From Pelagibacteraceae bacterium AG-422-B15 (GTDB taxonomy: Bacteria; Pseudomonadota; Alphaproteobacteria; Pelagibacterales; AG-422-B15): a stretch of DNA of 57,892 bases. Where the stretch lies: positions 1 to 57,892 of the forward strand of contig QCMN01000005.1 in the NCBI GenBank assembly GCA_003213715.1. The letters run 5' to 3'. Positions 467-41,229 of the stretch are shown one piece after another. Below the pieces are notes generated by a model, which worked only from the letters and a program-made list of their open reading frames with translations, was not told the origin of the DNA and made no database searches. Made by a program: the position numbers and the translations under genes. Position 1 is the stretch's first letter. Every line of letters starts with the position of its first letter.

Positions 467-1169
467 TTGTTTGATTGTTTTTAGATTTATTAAGTTTTTT
501 CCAAATAGAGTGCTCGCCTAATGTTTGAATAAATTCTTCATGCAGTTTTTTTTCTTGATCAGAAATCCGGGGTGCTAAATTTCTATTCTTGATCTTTTCA
601 GTGTCAAAAGATGAGGTAGAATTTGCTGTTACTGACTTGGAGCTTAGATCCAGACTTAGTTCGCGAGCATCCATTAGTTCTATGTACACACGGACTAAGA
701 GCTCGGTATCAATTGTAGCTGAATGTTTTTCTCTCTGCTTGTTATCAATTGCAAATCTTTTACAGAGCGCATCAAGTGAAACACTCTGGCCAGGAAATTT
801 TTCTCTAGCAATCGAGACAGTGTCTATTTTATCATTTTTAAGAGATTCTTTGCCACAAGTATTAAGCTCGTAATTTAAAAAACCAACATCAAAGTCCACA
901 TTGTGAGCAATAATTGGATCCGCACCTAAAAATTCTAGGAACTCTGATACAATATGCTCGAACAAAGGTTTGTCTTTTAAAAATTCGTAGCTCAATCCAT
1001 GCACTTTAAATGATGAATCAGGCACATCTCGCTGGGGATTAATATATTGTTGGTATGTTTTACCAGTGGGTAGATAATCAATTATTTCTATTGCAGCAAT
1101 TTCAATGACTCTGTGACCATCTGACGGCCTTAGTCCGGTGGTTTCTGTATCAAGTACGACTTGTCTCAT
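459..1169 (-). CDS. dnaQ: DNA polymerase III epsilon subunit, proofreading exonuclease
   Basis: A 236-residue 3'-5' exonuclease that proofreads for the replicative polymerase. The DEDDh catalytic set is complete: D7 and E9 in VLDTETTGL, D94 in AHNVDFDVGFL, and H149/D154 in the HSATID motif. The C-terminal 60 residues are poorly conserved and would contain the polymerase alpha-binding segment. The start ATG overlaps the coaE stop by 4 bp, indicating translational coupling. The order aroE-coaE-dnaQ is typical of Alphaproteobacteria, which supports dnaQ over a stand-alone exonuclease. Confidence 0.93.
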   Translation of the reverse strand: MRQVVLDTETTGLRPSDGHRVIEIAAIEIIDYLPTGKTYQQYINPQRDVPDSSFKVHGLSYEFLKDKPLFEHIVSEFLEFLGADPIIAHNVDFDVGFLNYELNTCGKESLKNDKIDTVSIAREKFPGQSVSLDALCKRFAIDNKQREKHSATIDTELLVRVYIELMDARELSLDLSSKSVTANSTSSFDTEKIKNRNLAPRISDQEKKLHEEFIQTLGEHSIWKKLNKSKNNQTSE

Positions 1170-1789
1170 TGATTAAAGAAGGTATTCCACGCCTTTGGAT
1201 TAATCAATTTAATTTTTGCAGCAACTTCTTTTACCTCTGATTTGGTATCTTCAATATTATTATCGGTTGAAATGATGTAATCTGCTTTTTTTAACTTGTC
1301 TCTGTCTGGCATCTGTTGATCTTTAATAGCATTAAAAATTTCTAACGGTACTTTTCTCTCCAACACCACTCTGGATTGTTGTGTTGCTTCAGATGCTGTC
1401 ACTACCACAGAAACGTCTACGTATTTTTCTCCTCCAGTCTCAAAGAGTAATGGAATGTCTAAAACGCAACCCATCTTTCCTTCTCCAATTAGTTTTTTTA
1501 TGTAAATTATTTGGTATTTCCTTGTTACAGGATGAACAATTTGTTCTAGGTCTCTAAATTTATCAGGGTCTTTATTAAGAATATCTCTTAATGCTAATCG
1601 ATTGACTACACCATCTTTCGTTGAGCCTGGAAACTGTCTCTCTACTTTTTCTATAACCTCTTCATCGTTTTCGTAAATGTAATGAACTGTATCGTCGGCA
1701 TTATACACGCCGTAACCATGATCTTTAAACATTTGAGCAACTGTGGATTTTCCCATCCCAATAGATCCTGTTACACCAACTAACAGCAC
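1166..1789 (-). CDS. coaE: Dephospho-CoA kinase
   Basis: Catalyses the last step of coenzyme A synthesis, phosphorylating the 3'-hydroxyl of dephospho-CoA with ATP. The 207-residue protein has a Walker A loop at residues 8-16 (GSIGMGKST), the family motif YNADDTVH near residues 29-36, and DIPLLFE near residue 110, which is the conserved substrate-side aspartate segment. Length is normal. It overlaps aroE by one base and dnaQ by four, so the three are almost certainly one transcript. Confidence 0.95.
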   Translation of the reverse strand: MLLVGVTGSIGMGKSTVAQMFKDHGYGVYNADDTVHYIYENDEEVIEKVERQFPGSTKDGVVNRLALRDILNKDPDKFRDLEQIVHPVTRKYQIIYIKKLIGEGKMGCVLDIPLLFETGGEKYVDVSVVVTASEATQQSRVVLERKVPLEIFNAIKDQQMPDRDKLKKADYIISTDNNIEDTKSEVKEVAAKIKLINPKAWNTFFNQ

Positions 1790-2613
1790 TAGCTAACCCC
1801 CAATACGCTCATTAAATCTTCATCAATCTCAGGCATTGTGTCGTGCCACAAGTTGAAGGACTGTGCGGCTTGATGGATTAGCATTTCCAGTCCATTTTGA
1901 ACTGTGCAGCCTTTTTTCTCAGCGTGTCTTAGAAATGTTGTTTTGCTTGGATTGTATATCAGGTCATAAACATGCGCAGATGAATTCAAACTATCAAATT
2001 CTATTAAATTGTTTTCTTGGTCTTCTTGTTGTCCTAAGCTTGTCGTGTTGACAACTAATTGTGAGGATCCGACAAACTCTCTAAGTGTTGTTTCTGTTAA
2101 GATTGTTGCTTCTACACCAAGGTCACTGCAAAGCAATTCTGCTTTTTCTCTTGTTCTATTATAAATACCAATCTCACACTTCATGTGTGTTAGAGCGTAT
2201 ACAACCGCCCTTGCTGATCCGCCAGCTCCAAGCACCAAACACAGCTTGTTATTTAAGCCTCTGTTTGCAATTGATTTTTCAAAACCAACTGGGTCGGTGT
2301 TATCCCCATAAACACCATCTTTGTTTATTATGAGTGTGTTAACTGCTTTGAGGGTTCTTGCAATATCGGATGTGTTGTCACAATATTTGTACGCGTCCTC
2401 TTTAAGGGGGATCGTAACGTTTAAACCGTTGTAACCCTCTTCTATTAAACGGTTAACATCCCTGATAAAATTTTCTTTTTTTACATTTATTTTTTCGTAG
2501 GGAGCTACGTCAATTTTCTTACTTTCAATCCAGTGATTATGAATTTTGGGTGAAAGGCTATGATCTATTGGATCTCCAATAACTGCTGTTTTTTTATGTG
2601 CCATTGTTTTCAA
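1789..2613 (-). CDS. aroE: Shikimate dehydrogenase (NADP+)
   Basis: Reduces 3-dehydroshikimate to shikimate in the aromatic amino-acid pathway. The substrate site is visible as SLSP at residues 19-22, the catalytic lysine K71 in NVTIPLK, and the NTDPVGF motif. A glycine-rich cofactor loop (GAGGSARAV) follows in the second domain. The annotated start gives 274 residues; a second ATG three codons in would also fit. The 5' end lies 20 bp inside maf. Gene order maf-aroE-coaE-dnaQ is conserved among Alphaproteobacteria. Confidence 0.95.
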   Translation of the reverse strand: MKTMAHKKTAVIGDPIDHSLSPKIHNHWIESKKIDVAPYEKINVKKENFIRDVNRLIEEGYNGLNVTIPLKEDAYKYCDNTSDIARTLKAVNTLIINKDGVYGDNTDPVGFEKSIANRGLNNKLCLVLGAGGSARAVVYALTHMKCEIGIYNRTREKAELLCSDLGVEATILTETTLREFVGSSQLVVNTTSLGQQEDQENNLIEFDSLNSSAHVYDLIYNPSKTTFLRHAEKKGCTVQNGLEMLIHQAAQSFNLWHDTMPEIDEDLMSVLGVS

Positions 2614-3199
2614 ATAGAAGGTTGTTATCCCAAAGGAACTGGGTTAATTGAATTAATGATATGCCTTGTATTGAAAAAAGGTCGCTCCCAATATTTTCAA
2701 AAAGTTTAATTCCTTCCTCCTCAATTGCATAGACGCCTACAAGACCAAGAATGTTATCGTCGATTTTATTTAAATACTCTTTTATCAAATCCTCGCTTAG
2801 CTTTCGCATATGCATTTTAGATCTGTCTACATACTTCCAAATAATGTTGTTGTCTTGAGCAACTGTTGTGGCGGTTATGAGTGTGTGGATAGATCCGCTC
2901 ATTTTCATCAACTGTTCTTTTGCTTCATTTCTATCCCTAGCCTTGTTAATTAATTCGCCTTTCAAATCCAAACCTTGGTCTGATCCAATAACAAATGCAC
3001 TTTTATTAGACATGGAGGGCTTCAAGGCCTTCATCTCGGCAAGTTTAACCACTATCTCTTCGGGTGTATTTTTACTCATTGACACCTTGACTTCTTCCTC
3101 ATCTACACCATGAGCAACGGCCTCAAAGCTTATGCCGGCGTTGCGTAATAATTTAATCCTTGTTTCGCTTTTAGATGCCAAAATTATATCTCTGTTCAT
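2594..3199 (-). CDS. maf: Maf family nucleotide pyrophosphatase
   Basis: A 201-residue Maf protein, a house-cleaning hydrolase of non-canonical or modified nucleoside triphosphates. The N-terminal signature ASKSETR at residues 8-14 and the catalytic aspartate in GSDQGL (near residue 73) are both present. The middle is less conserved than in well-studied Maf proteins, so substrate class (dTTP/UTP versus m7GTP) cannot be assigned from sequence alone. It is the first gene of the minus-strand run and is divergent from hemE across a gap of about 270 bp. Confidence 0.88.
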   Translation of the reverse strand: MNRDIILASKSETRIKLLRNAGISFEAVAHGVDEEEVKVSMSKNTPEEIVVKLAEMKALKPSMSNKSAFVIGSDQGLDLKGELINKARDRNEAKEQLMKMSGSIHTLITATTVAQDNNIIWKYVDRSKMHMRKLSEDLIKEYLNKIDDNILGLVGVYAIEEEGIKLFENIGSDLFSIQGISLIQLTQFLWDNNLLFENNGT

Positions 3200-3472
3200 A
3201 AACCTGTATAAACCCCTTATGACCTGTGAGTGCTTTTGTTATCTTTGCCCATCTGTAATTTTTAACTTATTTTTCTATCTTTATTGAGAATTTTTGCAAA
3301 CTTTGTTCACCTGTTAGAGATATTACTGTTTTCTTCCACGTCGGTGTATAAGGTTAAAAAGCATATAATTCAAAGCGATTGTTCTGTGTATCGAATTGTG
3401 GGCAAAAAGCGACTTTTTATATATACACAATTCCACAGGAACATAAACAACTACAATTATATATATAATATA
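3200..3472. other. Divergent maf/hemE intergenic region, possible replication origin
   Basis: No coding sequence is convincing here. The open frame that extends hemE upstream has no counterpart in the family. The stretch is AT-rich and ends in a run of alternating A and T at about 3456-3475. Two 9-mers match the DnaA-box consensus TTATNCACA at 8 of 9 positions: ATATACACA at 3421-3429 and, on the minus strand, GGTGTATAA at 3343-3351. Several 7-of-9 matches are also present. In Caulobacter the chromosomal origin lies next to hemE. Promoters for both maf and hemE must also be here. The origin call is inference. Confidence 0.35.
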
Positions 3473-4459
3473 ATGAGTATATTTATAGATACACTTAAAG
3501 GTCAAAAAACAAACCCAACACCAGTTTGGTTAATGAGACAGGCAGGAAGGCACTTGCCTGAATATGTCAATATCAGAAAACAATTTGCAAGCCTTATGGA
3601 TATGTTTCTTGATCCCATGACAATACTTGAGGTTTCCCTTCAGCCTGTAAACAGATACGGTATGGATGCCTGTATTGTGTTTTCAGATATTTTGATAACC
3701 CCTTTTGCAGCGGGTTCAAGTGTTAGTTTTATTGATGGGCAGGGCCCCGTAATAAAGTTCAATGAGAACATGAGTTATAATCTTGAAAAAACCTTACCCC
3801 TTGCAAAAGGAATAAAAAAAATTAAAGAAAATACAAGTATCCCTTTAATAGGATTTGCTGGCGGAGCATGGACCACACTGTTTTACTGTTTATATGAAAA
3901 AAATGAACGTCAAAATCTAAAATTTGAAGATATTGTAAAAAAGACTTCACAAATAGACAATTTAATTGAGCAAATGACACGTGCGACTATTCAACATGCA
4001 GAAATGCAAATTGATTGTGGGATTGATGCTTTTCAAATATTTGAATCAGCGGCAGAACATTTGAATGACGAACAGTTCAACAAATGGTGTATTCAACCTA
4101 CAAAAAAAATTATTGAGAGTATAAAAAAAATAAAAGACATTCCTATTATAGGCTTTCCTAGAAACACTAATCTTGCATGTTATAAAAAATATTCAAACAT
4201 AGATAAGCTTGACTGTATTAGCTTAGACTATAATTTTCCTTTAGATAAAATTAATGAGCTAAATGATAAAATTGTTTTTCAAGGAAATCTAGATCCTAAA
4301 CATCTATTAAAAGACTCCCAAAATCTTAGTCAGAAGATTGAAGAAATATTGTTTGCTTTTAGAGAAAGACCACATATTTTCAACTTAGGACACGGGGTTT
4401 TACCCGAGACATCAATCGAGAAAGTTGAGAAAATGCTCTTACAGATAAGGTCAACATGA
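3473..4459 (+). CDS. hemE: Uroporphyrinogen decarboxylase
   Basis: Converts uroporphyrinogen III to coproporphyrinogen III. The start was set at the ATG at 3473, giving 328 residues beginning MSIFIDTLKG. This places PVWLMRQAGRHLPEY at residues 17-31 with the substrate-binding arginines R22 and R26, as in other HemE proteins. A longer frame from 3284 would add about 63 unconserved residues and was rejected. The C-terminal FNLGHGVLPETS motif is intact. The stop overlaps the hemH start by 4 bp, so hemE-hemH-hemJ is an operon for late heme synthesis. Confidence 0.95.
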   Translation: MSIFIDTLKGQKTNPTPVWLMRQAGRHLPEYVNIRKQFASLMDMFLDPMTILEVSLQPVNRYGMDACIVFSDILITPFAAGSSVSFIDGQGPVIKFNENMSYNLEKTLPLAKGIKKIKENTSIPLIGFAGGAWTTLFYCLYEKNERQNLKFEDIVKKTSQIDNLIEQMTRATIQHAEMQIDCGIDAFQIFESAAEHLNDEQFNKWCIQPTKKIIESIKKIKDIPIIGFPRNTNLACYKKYSNIDKLDCISLDYNFPLDKINELNDKIVFQGNLDPKHLLKDSQNLSQKIEEILFAFRERPHIFNLGHGVLPETSIEKVEKMLLQIRST

Positions 4460-30814: not shown

Positions 30815-30889
30815 GCGAGTGTAGCTCAGTGGTAGAGCGAAACGTTGCCAACGTTTAGGTCGAGGGTTCGACTCCCTTCACTCGCTCCA
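30815..30889 (+). tRNA. tRNA-Gly (anticodon GCC)
   Basis: A full cloverleaf is visible: acceptor stem GCGAGTG/CACTCGC, D arm AGCTCAGTGGTAGAGC, anticodon stem AAACG/CGTTT with loop TTGCCAA, and T arm GAGGG TTCGACT CCCTT. The anticodon GCC is at 30847-30849. The CCA end is encoded (30887-30889). Confidence 0.97.
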
Positions 30890-33552: not shown

Positions 33553-34302
33553 ATGCTTATAAGAAAAATTTATAAATTAAGAAAAAGTATTTTAAGAAGA
33601 TTTTTATTTTTGACGAAAAAAGAAAAATTTTTTTATAAATTGAATAATATATTTCTTTTTTTAGATCTTAAGGATTCCATAGATAGGGAAATTTACTTCA
33701 ATGGATATTACGAAGATGAACAAGTTTCGTATTTAAAAGATTCAATTTTTAAATTTAACATTAACTACTTCATTGATATTGGTTCCAATATAGGTGTTTA
33801 CGCCTTATCAATTTCTGAGCAATTTCCTGATCTAAATGTTATTGCTTTCGAACCTCATAAAGATGCTTTCAATAGAATGGAAATGGCCATTAAAAAAAAT
33901 AATTTTTCTGAGAGAATAACTGCTTATCCCTATGCATTAGCGAATGAAGATGGTGAAGCAAAGTTATTTACTCTTAATAGATTTGATACAAGCCAATCAG
34001 GTGGAGCAAGAATAAGTGATAAAGGACAATTTACAGTCAGACAGAAAAAAGGGGATGATTTAATAAAACTCAAAAATCAAAAACTTGCGATTAAGATTGA
34101 TGTTGAGGAGTTTGAGCTAGAAGTGCTAAACGGTATAACTGAATTAATTAGTGATAATAAGGTCTTTTTGCAAATTGAAATATTTAACAGGAATTATCCA
34201 ATAATTTCATCATTTCTTGAGAATCGTAATTTCAAACTACTTAAAGAGGGTAATTACACTCATGACAAAAGACTAAGAGACTATTTTTACATTAATTTTT
34301 AA
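33553..34302 (+). CDS. FkbM family methyltransferase
   Basis: A 249-residue SAM-dependent methyltransferase. The SAM loop is FIDIGSNIGVYALSIS with the acidic AFEPH at the end of strand two, and the FkbM signature is AIKIDVEEFELEVLNGI. The first 60 residues are basic and helical and may hold a membrane- or partner-binding element. It is only loosely similar to the first FkbM gene, so the two are not a recent duplication. Its stop interlocks with that of convergent purH. Confidence 0.82.
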   Translation: MLIRKIYKLRKSILRRFLFLTKKEKFFYKLNNIFLFLDLKDSIDREIYFNGYYEDEQVSYLKDSIFKFNINYFIDIGSNIGVYALSISEQFPDLNVIAFEPHKDAFNRMEMAIKKNNFSERITAYPYALANEDGEAKLFTLNRFDTSQSGGARISDKGQFTVRQKKGDDLIKLKNQKLAIKIDVEEFELEVLNGITELISDNKVFLQIEIFNRNYPIISSFLENRNFKLLKEGNYTHDKRLRDYFYINF

Positions 34303-35865: not shown

Positions 35866-36522
35866 TTAATGGCCTCTTAGTTTTTCAATGTTATTTGCAT
35901 ACTCACTCGGGCCACCTTTAAAGGTTGTGGTACCTGCAACAATCATATCGGCCCCAGCATCAATTACCGATTGAACATTTTCAAAATTAATTCCCCCATC
36001 GACTTCTAAATGAATTTCTCTACCAGACTTGTTAATTTCTTCTCTAAGATTTGATAATTTATCAAGAGCTGATGGAATAAATTTCTGACCACCAAAACCA
36101 GGATGGACACTCATTACTAAAATGAGATCAAGTTTATCCATAAAAGGTTTTACAACTTCCCATTCAGTATCTGGGTTGATTGCAAGTCCAGCTTTTATAT
36201 TTAATGATTTAATTTTATTTAAACATGCTTCTGTATCATCCTTTGCCTCTGGGTGAACTGAAACAATATCCGCTCCAGCTTCAACAAATTTTTCAATATA
36301 AGGCTGTACAGGATCGATCATCAAATGAACATCAAACGGCAATGAAGATTTGTCTCTTATAGATTTAACAATATCTGGACCTATTGTGAGATTGGGAACA
36401 AAATGTCCATCCATTACATCTACGTGTATGTAGTCAGCCCCGGCTTGAGTGATATTAACAACCTCATCTCCTAATGATGAAAAGTCCGATGCTAATATAG
36501 AAGGTGATATTTTAACCGACAT
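35866..36522 (-). CDS. rpe: Ribulose-phosphate 3-epimerase
   Basis: Interconverts ribulose-5-phosphate and xylulose-5-phosphate. The 218-residue barrel has the N-terminal KISPSILASDFSSLGDEV, the metal-binding HVDVMDGHFVPNLTIGP, and the C-terminal EVDGGINFENV phosphate loop. Length is normal. The gene leads a two-gene run with purH. In many Alphaproteobacteria rsmB lies between DUF1674 and rpe, and it is missing here. Confidence 0.96.
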   Translation of the reverse strand: MSVKISPSILASDFSSLGDEVVNITQAGADYIHVDVMDGHFVPNLTIGPDIVKSIRDKSSLPFDVHLMIDPVQPYIEKFVEAGADIVSVHPEAKDDTEACLNKIKSLNIKAGLAINPDTEWEVVKPFMDKLDLILVMSVHPGFGGQKFIPSALDKLSNLREEINKSGREIHLEVDGGINFENVQSVIDAGADMIVAGTTTFKGGPSEYANNIEKLRGH

Positions 36523-36619: not shown

Positions 36620-36775
36620 ATGAACGATAAAAAAACAGAAAGTGTCGAAGACAAAGAAGACAAGAAAACTGACACCAAAATGCCTAAAAAGAAAAAAGAA
36701 ATAGGTGGGGTAGATGGTCCTGAGCCAACCCGCTTTGGAGACTGGGAAAAAAAGGGAATTACCACAGATTTCTAG
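36620..36775 (+). CDS. DUF1674 protein, SdhAF4-like
   Basis: A short gene of 51 residues starting at the ATG at 36620. The N-terminal half is highly charged (Lys, Glu, Asp). The C-terminus reads EIGGVDGPEPTRFGDWEKKG followed by ITTDF, which matches the conserved core of DUF1674, the family of succinate dehydrogenase assembly factor 4 that aids flavinated SdhA. It is divergent from rpe across about 100 bp. In related genomes it is near rsmB, purH and rpe. The frame is real because the motif is conserved and uninterrupted to the stop. Confidence 0.88.
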   Translation: MNDKKTESVEDKEDKKTDTKMPKKKKEIGGVDGPEPTRFGDWEKKGITTDF

Positions 36776-36898: not shown

Positions 36899-37495
36899 AT
36901 GTTAAAAAAGATCATTATGGTTTTACTGTTGGGGGTTGGAGTTAATACTGCTACAGCTAATCAATATTATATTGGATTTGATTTTAATGAAATAGAGGTA
37001 AACACAGGAGTTAAAAATATTTCTTCAAACTTGGATGAAGAGGATACCATATTAAAATTTACTGGTGGCTATAAATTAGATGATCAAATATCATTAGAAG
37101 CGTTTTATTTAGATTTTGGTGAAGCATCGTTGTCAGGTGTATCAGGTAACAGATTTTCATATGGAGGAAGTACATACGAATTTAATCAAACAGCTAAAAT
37201 AGCACTAGCGGTTGATACAATTGGAATAGGTGCTCGCTATAATATATATAATGAGGGTAAATCAACGTTATATGGCATTGCTGGTATTCATAGCTATGAT
37301 GTCTCTCTTTCTGTCGCTTCAGGAACAGGTTCTACAAGTGTAACAGAAACTGGTAACGACCCTTACTATGGAGTTGGGTATAATTATCTTGTTGCTGATA
37401 ATATAAAACTAAATATTTCTTATCAGAATTATGAATTCGATAATGACAATATAGATGGCTTCTTATTTGGCATTCAATACGACTTTAAAGATTAA
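36899..37495 (+). CDS. Small outer-membrane beta-barrel protein
   Basis: A 198-residue protein with a signal peptide cut near NTATA-NQYYIG. The mature part alternates polar and hydrophobic residues in about eight strands (KFTGGYKLDDQISLEAFYLDF, then AVDTIGIGARYNIY, GVGYNYLVADNIKLNISYQ), as in OmpA-like/OmpX-like barrels. The last residues FGIQYDFKD fit a final strand. It lies 17 bp before the first of two TbpB-like lipoprotein genes, so it could be part of the same unit. Ligand unknown. Confidence 0.75.
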   Translation: MLKKIIMVLLLGVGVNTATANQYYIGFDFNEIEVNTGVKNISSNLDEEDTILKFTGGYKLDDQISLEAFYLDFGEASLSGVSGNRFSYGGSTYEFNQTAKIALAVDTIGIGARYNIYNEGKSTLYGIAGIHSYDVSLSVASGTGSTSVTETGNDPYYGVGYNYLVADNIKLNISYQNYEFDNDNIDGFLFGIQYDFKD

Positions 37496-37512
37496 TTAAT
37501 AGTAAGGTAGTG

Positions 37513-38556
37513 ATGGTGGTGTATATTTTGCAGTTAAGAGATAGTATAATAAAAATCATTAGCATACTTTTCTTATCACTTTTTTTTTACTCATGTGGAG
37601 GCGGTGGTGGAGGCACTTCATCATCCTCAGGCTCTTCAAATACTGCAACAGCATACGATTGGACTGCTTCTGGCACTTCATATGGACCAACTTCATATCA
37701 TAGCTATTCATCATCTAGTGTATCTTCAGACTCTAATGATATATGTACAAGTAATACTTGCATATTTGGTGGTGCGGAGATTTCGGTTAACGCTCTCACA
37801 GACTCGGTTACAGTCACATATGAGGGTACAGCAGGAAACTTTACTTTTGTTGATTTTGAATTTCCAGCTTCTTCAATTGAGTCTACTACAGCTACAACGT
37901 CATCACATACTCTTGCCTCTACTAGTTATCTGTATAGCAAAACGGACGTTGCTAATGGAATTACTAAGAAATTGTATGTACTTATCCCCTCTAATTATCA
38001 ATACCAATATTGGGCATATTGGGATGATCAACACTTAACTTCTCCAACTCCAAGCACTTATTATGCTTATGCATCAGTTATCGGAAATACATTTACAGCA
38101 TTTACTGATCTTCCTTCATCGGGAACCGCTACTTACACTGGAGGAATGTCAATGGATTATGGATTATCAGATGCCTCAAAACTCTATAGGGGCACAGGTG
38201 ATGTATCTTTTACAGCAAATTGGGCAAATAGTACTATTGCAGGATCAATGACAAATGTAACTATATCAGAGTACCCTGCTTGGTGTTCAGGGGAGTGTCA
38301 AACTTTGAGTTTTCCAAATATCACAATGAATACAGCTAACATTATTGCTAATACCGGTCTTTCATTATCAAGTGGAGGCAACCCCGCATACTTTGTAGGC
38401 AATTTAGAATATTCAGGATATTACGATTTCGGTGGCGTTTATAATCGACTATACGGATATTTTTATGGACCAGAGTATAATGAAATTGGTGGTATTTTTG
38501 AATTAACTGCTACTTCAGGTGCGGACGGAGCAGGATACTTTGCCGCTAAAAGATAA
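37513..38556 (+). CDS. TbpB-like surface lipoprotein 1 (predicted Slam substrate)
   Basis: About 347 residues. The signal peptide ends in the lipobox FYSC, followed by six glycines and a Ser/Thr-rich tether, a common layout for surface-exposed lipoproteins. The C-terminal half has the barrel pattern of TbpB/HpuA-type proteins: LPSSGTATYTGGMSMDYG, then GTGDVSFTANWANSTIAGSM, and near the end YGYFYGPEYNEIGGIFEL and GAGYFAAKR. The start is uncertain: ATG at 37513, or a TTG at 37528 that mirrors the paralogue. No transferrin-type ligand is implied; only the barrel and tether are seen. Confidence 0.82.
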   Translation: MVVYILQLRDSIIKIISILFLSLFFYSCGGGGGGTSSSSGSSNTATAYDWTASGTSYGPTSYHSYSSSSVSSDSNDICTSNTCIFGGAEISVNALTDSVTVTYEGTAGNFTFVDFEFPASSIESTTATTSSHTLASTSYLYSKTDVANGITKKLYVLIPSNYQYQYWAYWDDQHLTSPTPSTYYAYASVIGNTFTAFTDLPSSGTATYTGGMSMDYGLSDASKLYRGTGDVSFTANWANSTIAGSMTNVTISEYPAWCSGECQTLSFPNITMNTANIIANTGLSLSSGGNPAYFVGNLEYSGYYDFGGVYNRLYGYFYGPEYNEIGGIFELTATSGADGAGYFAAKR

Positions 38557-39538
38557 ATTATTTAGAATACTGAGTTCTATTTTTGTAGCTCTTTTCCTTT
38601 ACTCATGTGGTGGAGGCGGCGGTGGAGGAACCTCGACCTCTTCAGTAAACGCACTAGCGTGGATACCTCAAGGAACTTATCATGGAACAGGATCACATTT
38701 CGGAGTTGGCAATACGGGAATGGTGGCTCCATTAACTTCTGGGGCAGGCCCAGCTTATGGAAATAATACTGGCTATGACTCAATGAAAGTAATTTTATCA
38801 TCTTCATCAATTACAGTTGACTATGAAGATTGGCCAAAAGAGACACAGGAATTTGATAATTGGAGTTTCGCCTTTACTGATTTTTCTTCATCGTCAGTTG
38901 TCTCAGACTCTAATACATTGACTTCAACCAATTATGTTTATCAAAATTATGACTCAGCTAATGGAAAAACTAAGAGTATAACAGTTATGGTTCCTAGTAA
39001 CTATGCAAATCAATTTTGGGTATATTGGGATAATACTCACTCTGACTATGCTAATGACTCCCGATATTACTATCATGTAAATGTATTAGGAAATTATACT
39101 CTTTACTCAGCTATCCCAACTAGCGGTACAGCAACTTATAATGGCGGTATGGAGGGATATTATGGCTATGATGATCTTTCATCCTTATTCACGGTAAATG
39201 GAACGGCAACTTTTAATGTAAATTGGACAGCAAAGACAATTGCGGGTGGATTTACAGGTGTTACAATTACCAATAATTCGAGTGGCGCTGTTTCAAATTT
39301 TACAAACATATCTATGGCCTCAACTGAGATTGAAAGTGATGTAATGTATTCAGGTGGAACACAATATGCGTATTTTAATCAAGATTTAACAGGATCAGGC
39401 TTATCAGATAGCTATTACAGCGATAATGAAATTTTTGGATATTTTTATGGAACTAATGCAGATGAAATTGCTGGTACATGGGAAATTGCCACATCAAGTA
39501 ATAATAATGGGGCGGGTTATTTTGCGGCTAAAAAATAG
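38540..39538 (+). CDS. TbpB-like surface lipoprotein 2 (predicted Slam substrate)
   Basis: About 332 residues, paralogous to the preceding gene. Signal peptide LYSC, seven glycines, then the same layout: IPTSGTATYNGGMEGYYG, NGTATFNVNWTAKTIAGG, FGYFYGTNADEIAGTWEI and GAGYFAAKK at the C-terminus. The likely start is a TTG at 38540 with GGAG 9 nt upstream, placed 17 bp inside the first gene and aligned with the equivalent signal peptide there. The two share the C-terminal barrel more clearly than the N-terminal half, which suggests different ligands. Confidence 0.82.
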   Translation: MPLKDKLFRILSSIFVALFLYSCGGGGGGGTSTSSVNALAWIPQGTYHGTGSHFGVGNTGMVAPLTSGAGPAYGNNTGYDSMKVILSSSSITVDYEDWPKETQEFDNWSFAFTDFSSSSVVSDSNTLTSTNYVYQNYDSANGKTKSITVMVPSNYANQFWVYWDNTHSDYANDSRYYYHVNVLGNYTLYSAIPTSGTATYNGGMEGYYGYDDLSSLFTVNGTATFNVNWTAKTIAGGFTGVTITNNSSGAVSNFTNISMASTEIESDVMYSGGTQYAYFNQDLTGSGLSDSYYSDNEIFGYFYGTNADEIAGTWEIATSSNNNGAGYFAAKK

Positions 39539-39561
39539 CTAAATTTAACCAAGCAATTTAT

Positions 39562-40806
39562 GTGTTAAAAATACTTGCCAACTTAGTTATCATCAGCGTT
39601 CTATTTACTCTTCACGTACATAGCCAACAAGCCACTATCGTTGCAAGTGAGGATAATATTGAAGAACTTTTGCTTTTGGATCCTGACAATATTGATTTTC
39701 TTAATATTTATGCAATCAAGCAACAAAGGCAAAAAAATTACATAGGAGCAATTCAAACACTTCAGAAAATAATTGAGTTGGACAATACACTATTACCCTT
39801 CTATCTAGAACTGGCCCGTTTACAATTTACCATTCACGATTTTAAAAGTGCTGAAAATAATTTTTTATTTGTTTACGAACAAAATATCCCCTCAAACGTT
39901 AAAAATAATATTAGATATTATTTAAGACAAATTGAACGACTTAATCCAGCAACTATAAATTATAATTTCAAGATCAGTTACAACGATAATATTAACAATG
40001 GAACTTATGCAGATACAGTTCGGTTGTTTGGCATACCCTTCAAAGTAAATGAAGAAGCGAAAGCAAAAGAAAGTTACGAGTTGTTTACAGATATAAATGG
40101 AGCTTATGATTTTAGTTTAGACAGCTACCAACTAAATACTGGTTTTTTAATTAATCATTCAAATTATGCTGGCAGTGCTTACGACAGATTGAAGTATGGT
40201 ATTAATGTTGGTCCTGAACATTATTATAAAGGTCAAAAAATCAACTGGTCATTATTGCTTTCAAGAGAAGAAATGGATAGTAATCCTATTGTGAACTCTA
40301 GAGAAATTAGAGTCTCAAATCTTTTTAATTACAGACCCAATATTCAAATTCAATCTACTTTAGGTATGGGTGAGTCTGATTATTATAATAATGCGAGCTA
40401 TAATAGTGACAGCAAATTCATTAACCTTTTGGTCAATTATATTGATAGAAATAATATTAACTACTCTACGAATTTAAAATTTACCGATAACGATGCAGAT
40501 TACAAACCATATGGAAATGAAAAAAAATATTTTTCAGCCTCAATTGCTTCAGAGCTTCCGCGTGGTTTTTTTGTTAACTTACAACTAGGCATTGAGGAAG
40601 TTGATTATGATGCCTATCAATTTATGTGGCTAACTACGAGAAAGGATCGATTAGAGTTTGCATCCTTAAGTTTAAGGAATAAAAATTTATATATCGGCAA
40701 TTTCTACCCTCAAATCAATATTACACTGAGAGATAATGAATCTAATGTTGAAGTATACAAAACATCCTCAGACAGTGTGTCCATGTTCTTAATAAAAGAT
40801 TTTTAA
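39562..40806 (+). CDS. Slam-like outer-membrane protein (TPR plus DUF560-type barrel)
   Basis: 414 residues from a GTG start, 23 bp after the second lipoprotein gene. A signal peptide (to about residue 21) is followed by two or three TPR-like helix pairs (residues 25-130, including NYIGAIQTLQKIIELDN). From about residue 134 there is a long beta-barrel opening with NYNFKISYNDNINNGTYAD and ending in phenylalanine (FLIKDF). This is the layout of Slam, the surface lipoprotein assembly modulator (SlipAM/DUF560) that moves TbpB-type lipoproteins to the cell surface. Adjacency to two TbpB-like lipoproteins is strong support. Neisseria Slam is somewhat longer. Confidence 0.8.
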   Translation: MLKILANLVIISVLFTLHVHSQQATIVASEDNIEELLLLDPDNIDFLNIYAIKQQRQKNYIGAIQTLQKIIELDNTLLPFYLELARLQFTIHDFKSAENNFLFVYEQNIPSNVKNNIRYYLRQIERLNPATINYNFKISYNDNINNGTYADTVRLFGIPFKVNEEAKAKESYELFTDINGAYDFSLDSYQLNTGFLINHSNYAGSAYDRLKYGINVGPEHYYKGQKINWSLLLSREEMDSNPIVNSREIRVSNLFNYRPNIQIQSTLGMGESDYYNNASYNSDSKFINLLVNYIDRNNINYSTNLKFTDNDADYKPYGNEKKYFSASIASELPRGFFVNLQLGIEEVDYDAYQFMWLTTRKDRLEFASLSLRNKNLYIGNFYPQINITLRDNESNVEVYKTSSDSVSMFLIKDF

Positions 40807-40812
40807 TTTATC

Positions 40813-41229
40813 TTAAAGTTGCCGATCAAACTTCGATGGTTTCCAATCCTTTGGTGCCAATTCTAAATCTTCAAATTCAAAAGCGGGTGCAACGGTGCAT
40901 CCAATTAAGCTATACGTTCCAGTGGATTTCAAGGCAAACCAAGTTCCTTTTTCTACAGTGTACATAAAATTGTTATTGGACCCTATTTCCTCAATCTGAA
41001 ATTCTACACCATCCTTTGAAGTGTAGATGTTTAGAGGACTGCCTGAGTAAAAATGTAACGTTTCAGTTTTTGTTATTCTGTGCCAGTGTGAGTTCTCATG
41101 CTTTTCAAGTAAAAAATATATATGAGTGACATCATCATTTCTAAAAATCTCTACGTAATGACCTCCTTCAGGATGTGGGGTCATTTTGTGTCCTTCGATT
41201 AAGGCCTTAACAATACTTCTATCACTCAC
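40813..41229 (-). CDS. DUF985 cupin protein
   Basis: A 138-residue single-domain cupin of the DUF985 family. The motifs MTPHPEGGHYVEIF, SHWHRITKTETLHFYSG and the C-terminal GCTVAPAFEFEDLELAP are typical. The histidines in the second motif could bind a metal. Biochemical role is not established for the family. It is six bases from acs on the same strand and convergent with the Slam-like gene. Confidence 0.88.
   Translation of the reverse strand: MSDRSIVKALIEGHKMTPHPEGGHYVEIFRNDDVTHIYFLLEKHENSHWHRITKTETLHFYSGSPLNIYTSKDGVEFQIEEIGSNNNFMYTVEKGTWFALKSTGTYSLIGCTVAPAFEFEDLELAPKDWKPSKFDRQL

Follow-up and report, generated by a model that had tools for sequence, protein, structure and literature searches.

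A four-gene cassette that very probably encodes a Slam exporter and two fast-diverging surface lipoproteins in a streamlined Pelagibacterales genome

The contig QCMN01000005.1 of Pelagibacteraceae bacterium AG-422-B15, analyzed over positions 1–57,892 (the window), carries a four-gene cassette on the plus strand between rpe and a DUF1674 gene on the left and a cupin gene on the right. In order, these genes encode an OmpA-type barrel, the two lipoproteins Lp1 and Lp2 and a protein of 414 residues, and all open reading frames of the cassette are intact (Table 1). The cassette very probably encodes a Slam exporter of the type XI secretion system (T11SS), together with two fast-diverging lipoproteins for placement at the cell surface. 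An earlier note on this DNA had taken the region 36899–40806 as a whole for a Slam locus with two TbpB-like lipoproteins. This description stands for the trio of Lp1, Lp2 and Slam, but not for the first ~600 bp, which encode the OmpA-type barrel and lie outside the trio. The source genome measures 1.09 Mb in 36 contigs (completeness 85.5%, contamination 0.08%), and its gene content was checked genome-wide, family by family. The genome size and the nearest named relatives carrying the locus, the uncultured Pelagibacteraceae bacteria AG-895-F07 and AG-426-I21 (GenBank), agree with the streamlined marine-type alphaproteobacterium that had been suspected. Both relatives are presumably single-cell genomes, judged from their names; the record title of AG-895-F07 says MAG (metagenome-assembled genome). 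Misbinning is an unlikely explanation for the cassette, as core genes flank the cassette on both sides in one contig and the same site is found in two other records.

The 414-residue protein consists of a signal peptide, a short, putatively TPR-like N-domain and a DUF560/SlipAM barrel. The match to the SlipAM/DUF560 profile, which had been expected beforehand, spans profile positions 3–286 of 288 and lies above the cut-off of 22 bits (Table 1). Its gene starts 23 bp downstream of the Lp2 stop codon, the distance given in the earlier note. Orthologues are found at the same site in the two relatives, with 96% identity in AG-895-F07 and 68% in the other. The ratio of nonsynonymous to synonymous substitution rates (dN/dS) of the Slam is 0.08–0.10 between loci, and the protein is therefore under strong purifying selection. 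The three Pelagibacterales sequences cluster together on a long branch in a tree of SlipAM proteins from Alphaproteobacteria (29 sequences), with no clear sister or donor, and a scan of viral contigs for Slam relatives found none.

Read directly from the sequence, both lipoproteins contain a lipobox after a hydrophobic leader (FYSC-G in Lp1, LYSC-G in Lp2), a Gly/Ser-rich tether and the C-terminal ends GAGYFAAKR and GAGYFAAKK, respectively; lipobox, tether and ends are those of the earlier note. Translation likely starts at TTG in both genes. The start of Lp2 falls within the final YFAAKR codons of Lp1, giving an overlap of 17 bp, and this arrangement makes translational coupling of the two genes probable. 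Each lipoprotein scores above the cut-off of TbpB_B_D, as anticipated, with one barrel per protein. A profile built from four cargo sequences matched LbpB, TbpB, NHBA and fHbp chains in the PDB, and all matches at E < 0.005 are known Slam cargo (LbpB, TbpB and NHBA). For the predicted model of Lp1, the top Foldseek matches are TbpB, fHbp, LbpB and hemophilin, and the best 50 rows of the VIA-align comparison are fHbp, TbpB, LbpB and NHBA with Z-scores of 13–16. The whole model aligns to fHbp with a Z-score of 16.3 (208 residues, 3.8 Å), and its residues 165–320 align to the C-terminal barrel of fHbp with a Z-score of 16.0 and an rmsd of 2.3 Å over 118 residues. The predicted fold of Lp1 is thus of the TbpB/fHbp type with a C-terminal 8-strand barrel, in line with the TbpB-like barrel proposed in the earlier note. 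The suggestion of a new cargo class holds only in part: the architecture of tether, N-domain and 8-strand barrel is a familiar one that resembles putative cargo of Roseobacter loci (PMC12282271), whereas the N-domain has a signature of its own (PxNY...W), common to all five Pelagibacterales cargo proteins and missing from the other alphaproteobacterial cargo matches checked.

The genomic distribution links the two components. SlipAM is found in three of the 53 genomes of the family, and TbpB_B_D in the same three, with a total of five genes that all belong to Slam-positive loci. Under random placement, with relatedness ignored, the chance of such a coincidence is 1/C(53,3) = 4e-5. The Slam loci of the three genomes sit at one chromosomal site. 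Across the order (397 Pelagibacterales genomes), strong SlipAM matches are limited to these three, with two marginal ones in another genus, whereas 43 of 385 alphaproteobacterial genomes contain SlipAM, many with a TbpB_B_D gene within a few kb. A Slam with TbpB-like cargo is therefore ordinary in Alphaproteobacteria and rare in Pelagibacterales, and the locus, which the earlier note expected to be unusual in a streamlined marine-type alphaproteobacterium, is unusual for its order but not for its class.

Other SlipAM-related arrangements were also seen. The alphaproteobacterial genomes G571 and G666 (family f143) and G742 (f168) have one SlipAM match each, but 8–10 matches to TbpB_B_D, which are distributed across several to many contigs. 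The Pelagibacteraceae genomes G121 (L036 4788–7677) and G245 (L037 5334–8244) contain a marginal SlipAM-like TPR-barrel gene with a FecR-domain protein directly downstream. The latter has a long C-terminal part, and the two proteins may possibly form an unrecognised secretion pair; the FecR-domain partner was rejected as TbpB-type cargo, as no similarity was found (hhalign probability 0.1%).

The cassette occupies a site that varies among relatives. The gap between rpe and the cupin gene, which is present in 40 of the 53 genomes, was measured in 37 genomes with both genes on one contig. It amounts to 262–266 bp in 14 of these, representing the empty site, and reaches up to 4293 bp in AG-422-B15. 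In AG-895-F07 the site contains two cargo genes (LpA and LpB) and the Slam gene, and the OmpA-type barrel gene is missing (L004/L027). In AG-426-I21, one cargo gene lies at a contig end and the Slam gene at the start of another contig, followed by a gene for a 262-residue protein of no known family; the two contigs (C3 and C2) do not overlap. Elsewhere in the family the site is occupied, among others, by a cytochrome c gene, small genes or an OmpA-like barrel gene.

The cargo genes differ strongly between loci, unlike their surroundings. Between AG-422-B15 and AG-895-F07, nucleotide identity is 94% for both rpe and Slam, but only 57% for Lp1/LpA and 48% for Lp2/LpB, and at the amino-acid level the cargo is 31–50% identical compared to 96–97% for Slam and the left flank. 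Synonymous divergence is 0.27 for rpe and 0.25 for Slam, compared to 0.66–0.68 for the nearby genes purH, acs and gpsA and 0.58 for the cupin gene. The lower values suggest that the rpe–Slam segment was recently exchanged by recombination, with the cupin gene outside that segment. A 39-bp stretch before Lp1, encoding *GSDGGVYFAVKR*, agrees in 32 of 34 bases with the 3' end of LpA in AG-895-F07, with an alignment score of 58 compared to a maximum of 29 in 2000 shuffles, and is probably the leftover of a lost cargo gene. In Lp1 itself, the start and leader resemble those of LpB (13 of 22 residues) and the body that of LpA, a mosaic as expected for recombination between tandem copies. The cargo thus changes quickly while Slam and the flanks are conserved, in part through recombination of tandem copies, and this gives the locus the look of an exchangeable cassette for surface display at an insertion site.

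Modeled on the studied Slam pathway (PMC5449769; PMC9090332), Lp1 and Lp2 would cross the inner membrane via Sec, receive their lipid at the lipobox Cys by the action of Lgt and signal peptidase II, and travel unfolded through the periplasm. At the outer membrane, the SlipAM barrel would recognise the C-terminal 8-strand barrel domain of the cargo and pass the cargo to the outer leaflet. Its lipid and Gly/Ser linker would keep it tethered there, with the N-domain pointing outward. Domain assignments, predicted cargo fold, co-occurrence, gene order and the finding of signal peptidase II (in each of the Slam-positive genomes) and Lgt (in two of the three) are observations, and the translocation step and surface topology are transferred from the studied systems. 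Several points weigh against this assignment. Both lipoproteins stay below the cut-off of 80 bits of the NCBIfam slam_lipo equivalog NF041636 (32.4 and 33.0 bits), and would thus be related to this Slam-dependent surface lipoprotein family but outside the equivalog. The Lp1 model is of moderate confidence (mean predicted local distance difference test score, pLDDT, of 60; predicted template modeling score, pTM, of 0.67). Of the TPR-plus-barrel layout claimed earlier for the Slam, the barrel scores above its cut-off but the N-terminal TPR matches are weak and under the Pfam cut-offs (TPR_17 E 0.0014 as the best; TPR_Slam E 0.0065, 17.3 bits compared to a cut-off of 35.2). The AlphaFold model of the Slam, made from three sequences, shows helices at 30–127 but has a mean pLDDT of only 32, and because of this the barrel fold is taken from the profile match rather than from structure. 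The Slam also stands apart on its own long branch within the sample of Slams from Alphaproteobacteria, so that substrate specificity cannot be read across, and Lgt was not found in AG-426-I21, a genome that is ~90% complete. With these points included, a type XI secretion cassette that exports Lp1 and Lp2 remains highly probable.

What the exported lipoproteins would do is less certain. They could be substrate-capture proteins, for heme, a metal complex or a vitamin, that pair with the TonB-dependent receptor of the cell as TbpB does with TbpA. The TbpB-like fold fits such a role, which is typical of many studied Slam cargo, and each of the three Slam-positive genomes has one TonB-dependent receptor. 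As the earlier note had observed, however, there is no such receptor at the cassette: the sole one found in AG-422-B15 by the Plug model (L093 1929–4694, G000:C10) adjoins a DUF6580 gene on another contig. Since each of the three Slam-less relatives tested (G073, G020 and G033) has one as well, the receptor is not coupled to the cassette. This distribution argues against a TbpA/TbpB-type pair, as do the single lobe and fast divergence of the cargo, and makes substrate capture with this receptor rather unlikely. A horizontally acquired cassette that has no role in this species, and is in decay or works only in part, would agree with its rarity in the family (3/53), the one cargo remnant and the OmpA-type gene where AG-895-F07 has LpA. 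The intact reading frames, the purifying selection on Slam and the two intact cargo genes kept in each of two genomes make this very improbable.

Another possibility is a variable surface coat under phage or grazer pressure, for which Slam would be the constant exporter and the lipoproteins exchangeable masks or decoys. The divergence of the cargo next to a near-identical Slam, the cargo remnant, the mosaic Lp1 and a site that is empty or filled with other outer-membrane genes in other genomes would all fit such a coat. Yet selection on the cargo cannot be measured, because its synonymous sites are near saturation; furthermore, the shared PxNY...W signature marks the five proteins as variants of one family instead of unrelated masks, and no phage link was found. 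A coat of this kind is possible, with the odds against it. On balance, N-domains that capture or touch a variable partner outside the cell are favoured over a fixed nutrient-receptor partnership. A wider proposal would be that the SAR11-type Slam is a constant exporter of an exchangeable, fast-diverging lipoprotein cassette that is recombined at a presence/absence site and affects how the cell meets phages, grazers or other cells of the open ocean, unrelated to host iron piracy; this we put forward as speculative and rather doubtful.

Table 1. Features of the cassette and its flanks (window coordinates)
Feature	Position	Strand	Evidence and remarks
rpe	35869–36522		left of the DUF1674 gene
DUF1674 protein, 51 aa, left core flank of insertion site	36620–36775	+	PF07896 E 1e-13; conserved beside rpe in relatives examined
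OmpA-type 8-strand outer-membrane barrel, accessory passenger	36899–37495	+	PF13505 E 1.9e-12; PF01389 E 3e-6
Probable 3'-end remnant of lost upstream cargo gene	37506–37544	+	match to LpA end
Lp1, predicted surface lipoprotein, 342 aa	37528–38556	+	PF01298 (TbpB_B_D) E 9.7e-9; inferred TTG start 37528; lipobox Cys codon 37594; stop 38554–38556
Lp2, predicted surface lipoprotein, 332 aa	38540–39538	+	PF01298 (TbpB_B_D) E 1.6e-8; inferred TTG start 38540; lipobox Cys codon 38606; stop 39536–39538
Slam / type XI secretion outer-membrane protein, 414 aa	39562–40806	+	PF04575 (SlipAM/DUF560) E 9.4e-14, 52 bits
Cupin_5 (DUF985) protein, right core flank of insertion site	40813–41229	-	PF06172 E 4.3e-32

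No terminator-like sites were found, and promoter-like sites occur only at the rate of shuffled sequence. The sole Rfam match in the window is a tRNA (30815–30886). A different surface cassette occupies the insertion site in genome G032 (L007 = G032:C14:3700-8700, 1093–3883), where the gene for a lipobox protein, which combines a long Gly tether with a Peptidase_S8 domain (E 2e-16), lies with two outer-membrane-type genes; this stretch also codes for an OmpA-type barrel and for a 176-residue protein that belongs to no known family. A second variable spot is found on the far side of purH (window 33553–34302 compared to L004 1606–2205), with a 249-residue protein, FkbM-type methyltransferase-like by eye, in AG-422-B15 and a 199-residue membrane protein in AG-895-F07.

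Several Slam cargo proteins are vaccine antigens. Slams occur "within all clades of Proteobacteria" (Hooda et al., PMC5449769); experimental tests of Slams are limited to animal-associated types (PMC12282271). We found no publication that links T11SS with SAR11 in a search that left subscription papers and preprints mostly outside, and two T11SS surveys name neither SAR11 nor Pelagibacter in the main text. Judged from its sequence, the cassette is a new and divergent representative of a known system, in a host where such a system was not expected. Its presence, with a Slam beside two cargo genes, in a free-living ocean bacterium with a minimal genome suggests that such machinery can be of use in the absence of a host, and the small Slam and single-lobe cargo make the locus a natural test case of low complexity. 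The cassette would also be a surface trait of some lineages of a species-rich SAR11 genus that is missing from most.

With Slam1 and Slam2 of Neisseria and relatives, the SAR11 system shares the DUF560 barrel, the adjacent genes for lipoproteins with a TbpB fold and possibly the N-terminal helical domain (PMC5449769), but its Slam is smaller (414 aa), highly divergent and weak in its TPR match, and the locus belongs to a free-living streamlined host and has no TonB receptor in the cluster. Lp1 resembles fHbp and the TbpB C-lobe in model fold (Z about 14–16) and sequence profile at an identity of 14–20%. In contrast to TbpB proper, which is bilobed and paired with TbpA, an adjacent TonB-dependent receptor, Lp1 and Lp2 are single-lobed and unpaired. 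The T11SS of Roseobacteraceae/Rhodobacteraceae (cluster 3, PMC12282271) likewise belongs to marine Alphaproteobacteria and has its putative cargo beside the T11SS outer-membrane protein; these lipoproteins of 282–375 aa consist of an N-domain, a pedestal and a C-terminal 8-strand barrel. None of the DUF1194, ThyX and lactoylglutathione lyase genes of cluster 3 were seen at the SAR11 site, which differs furthermore by the N-domain signature of its cargo, the tandem overlapping cargo genes and the divergent Slam.

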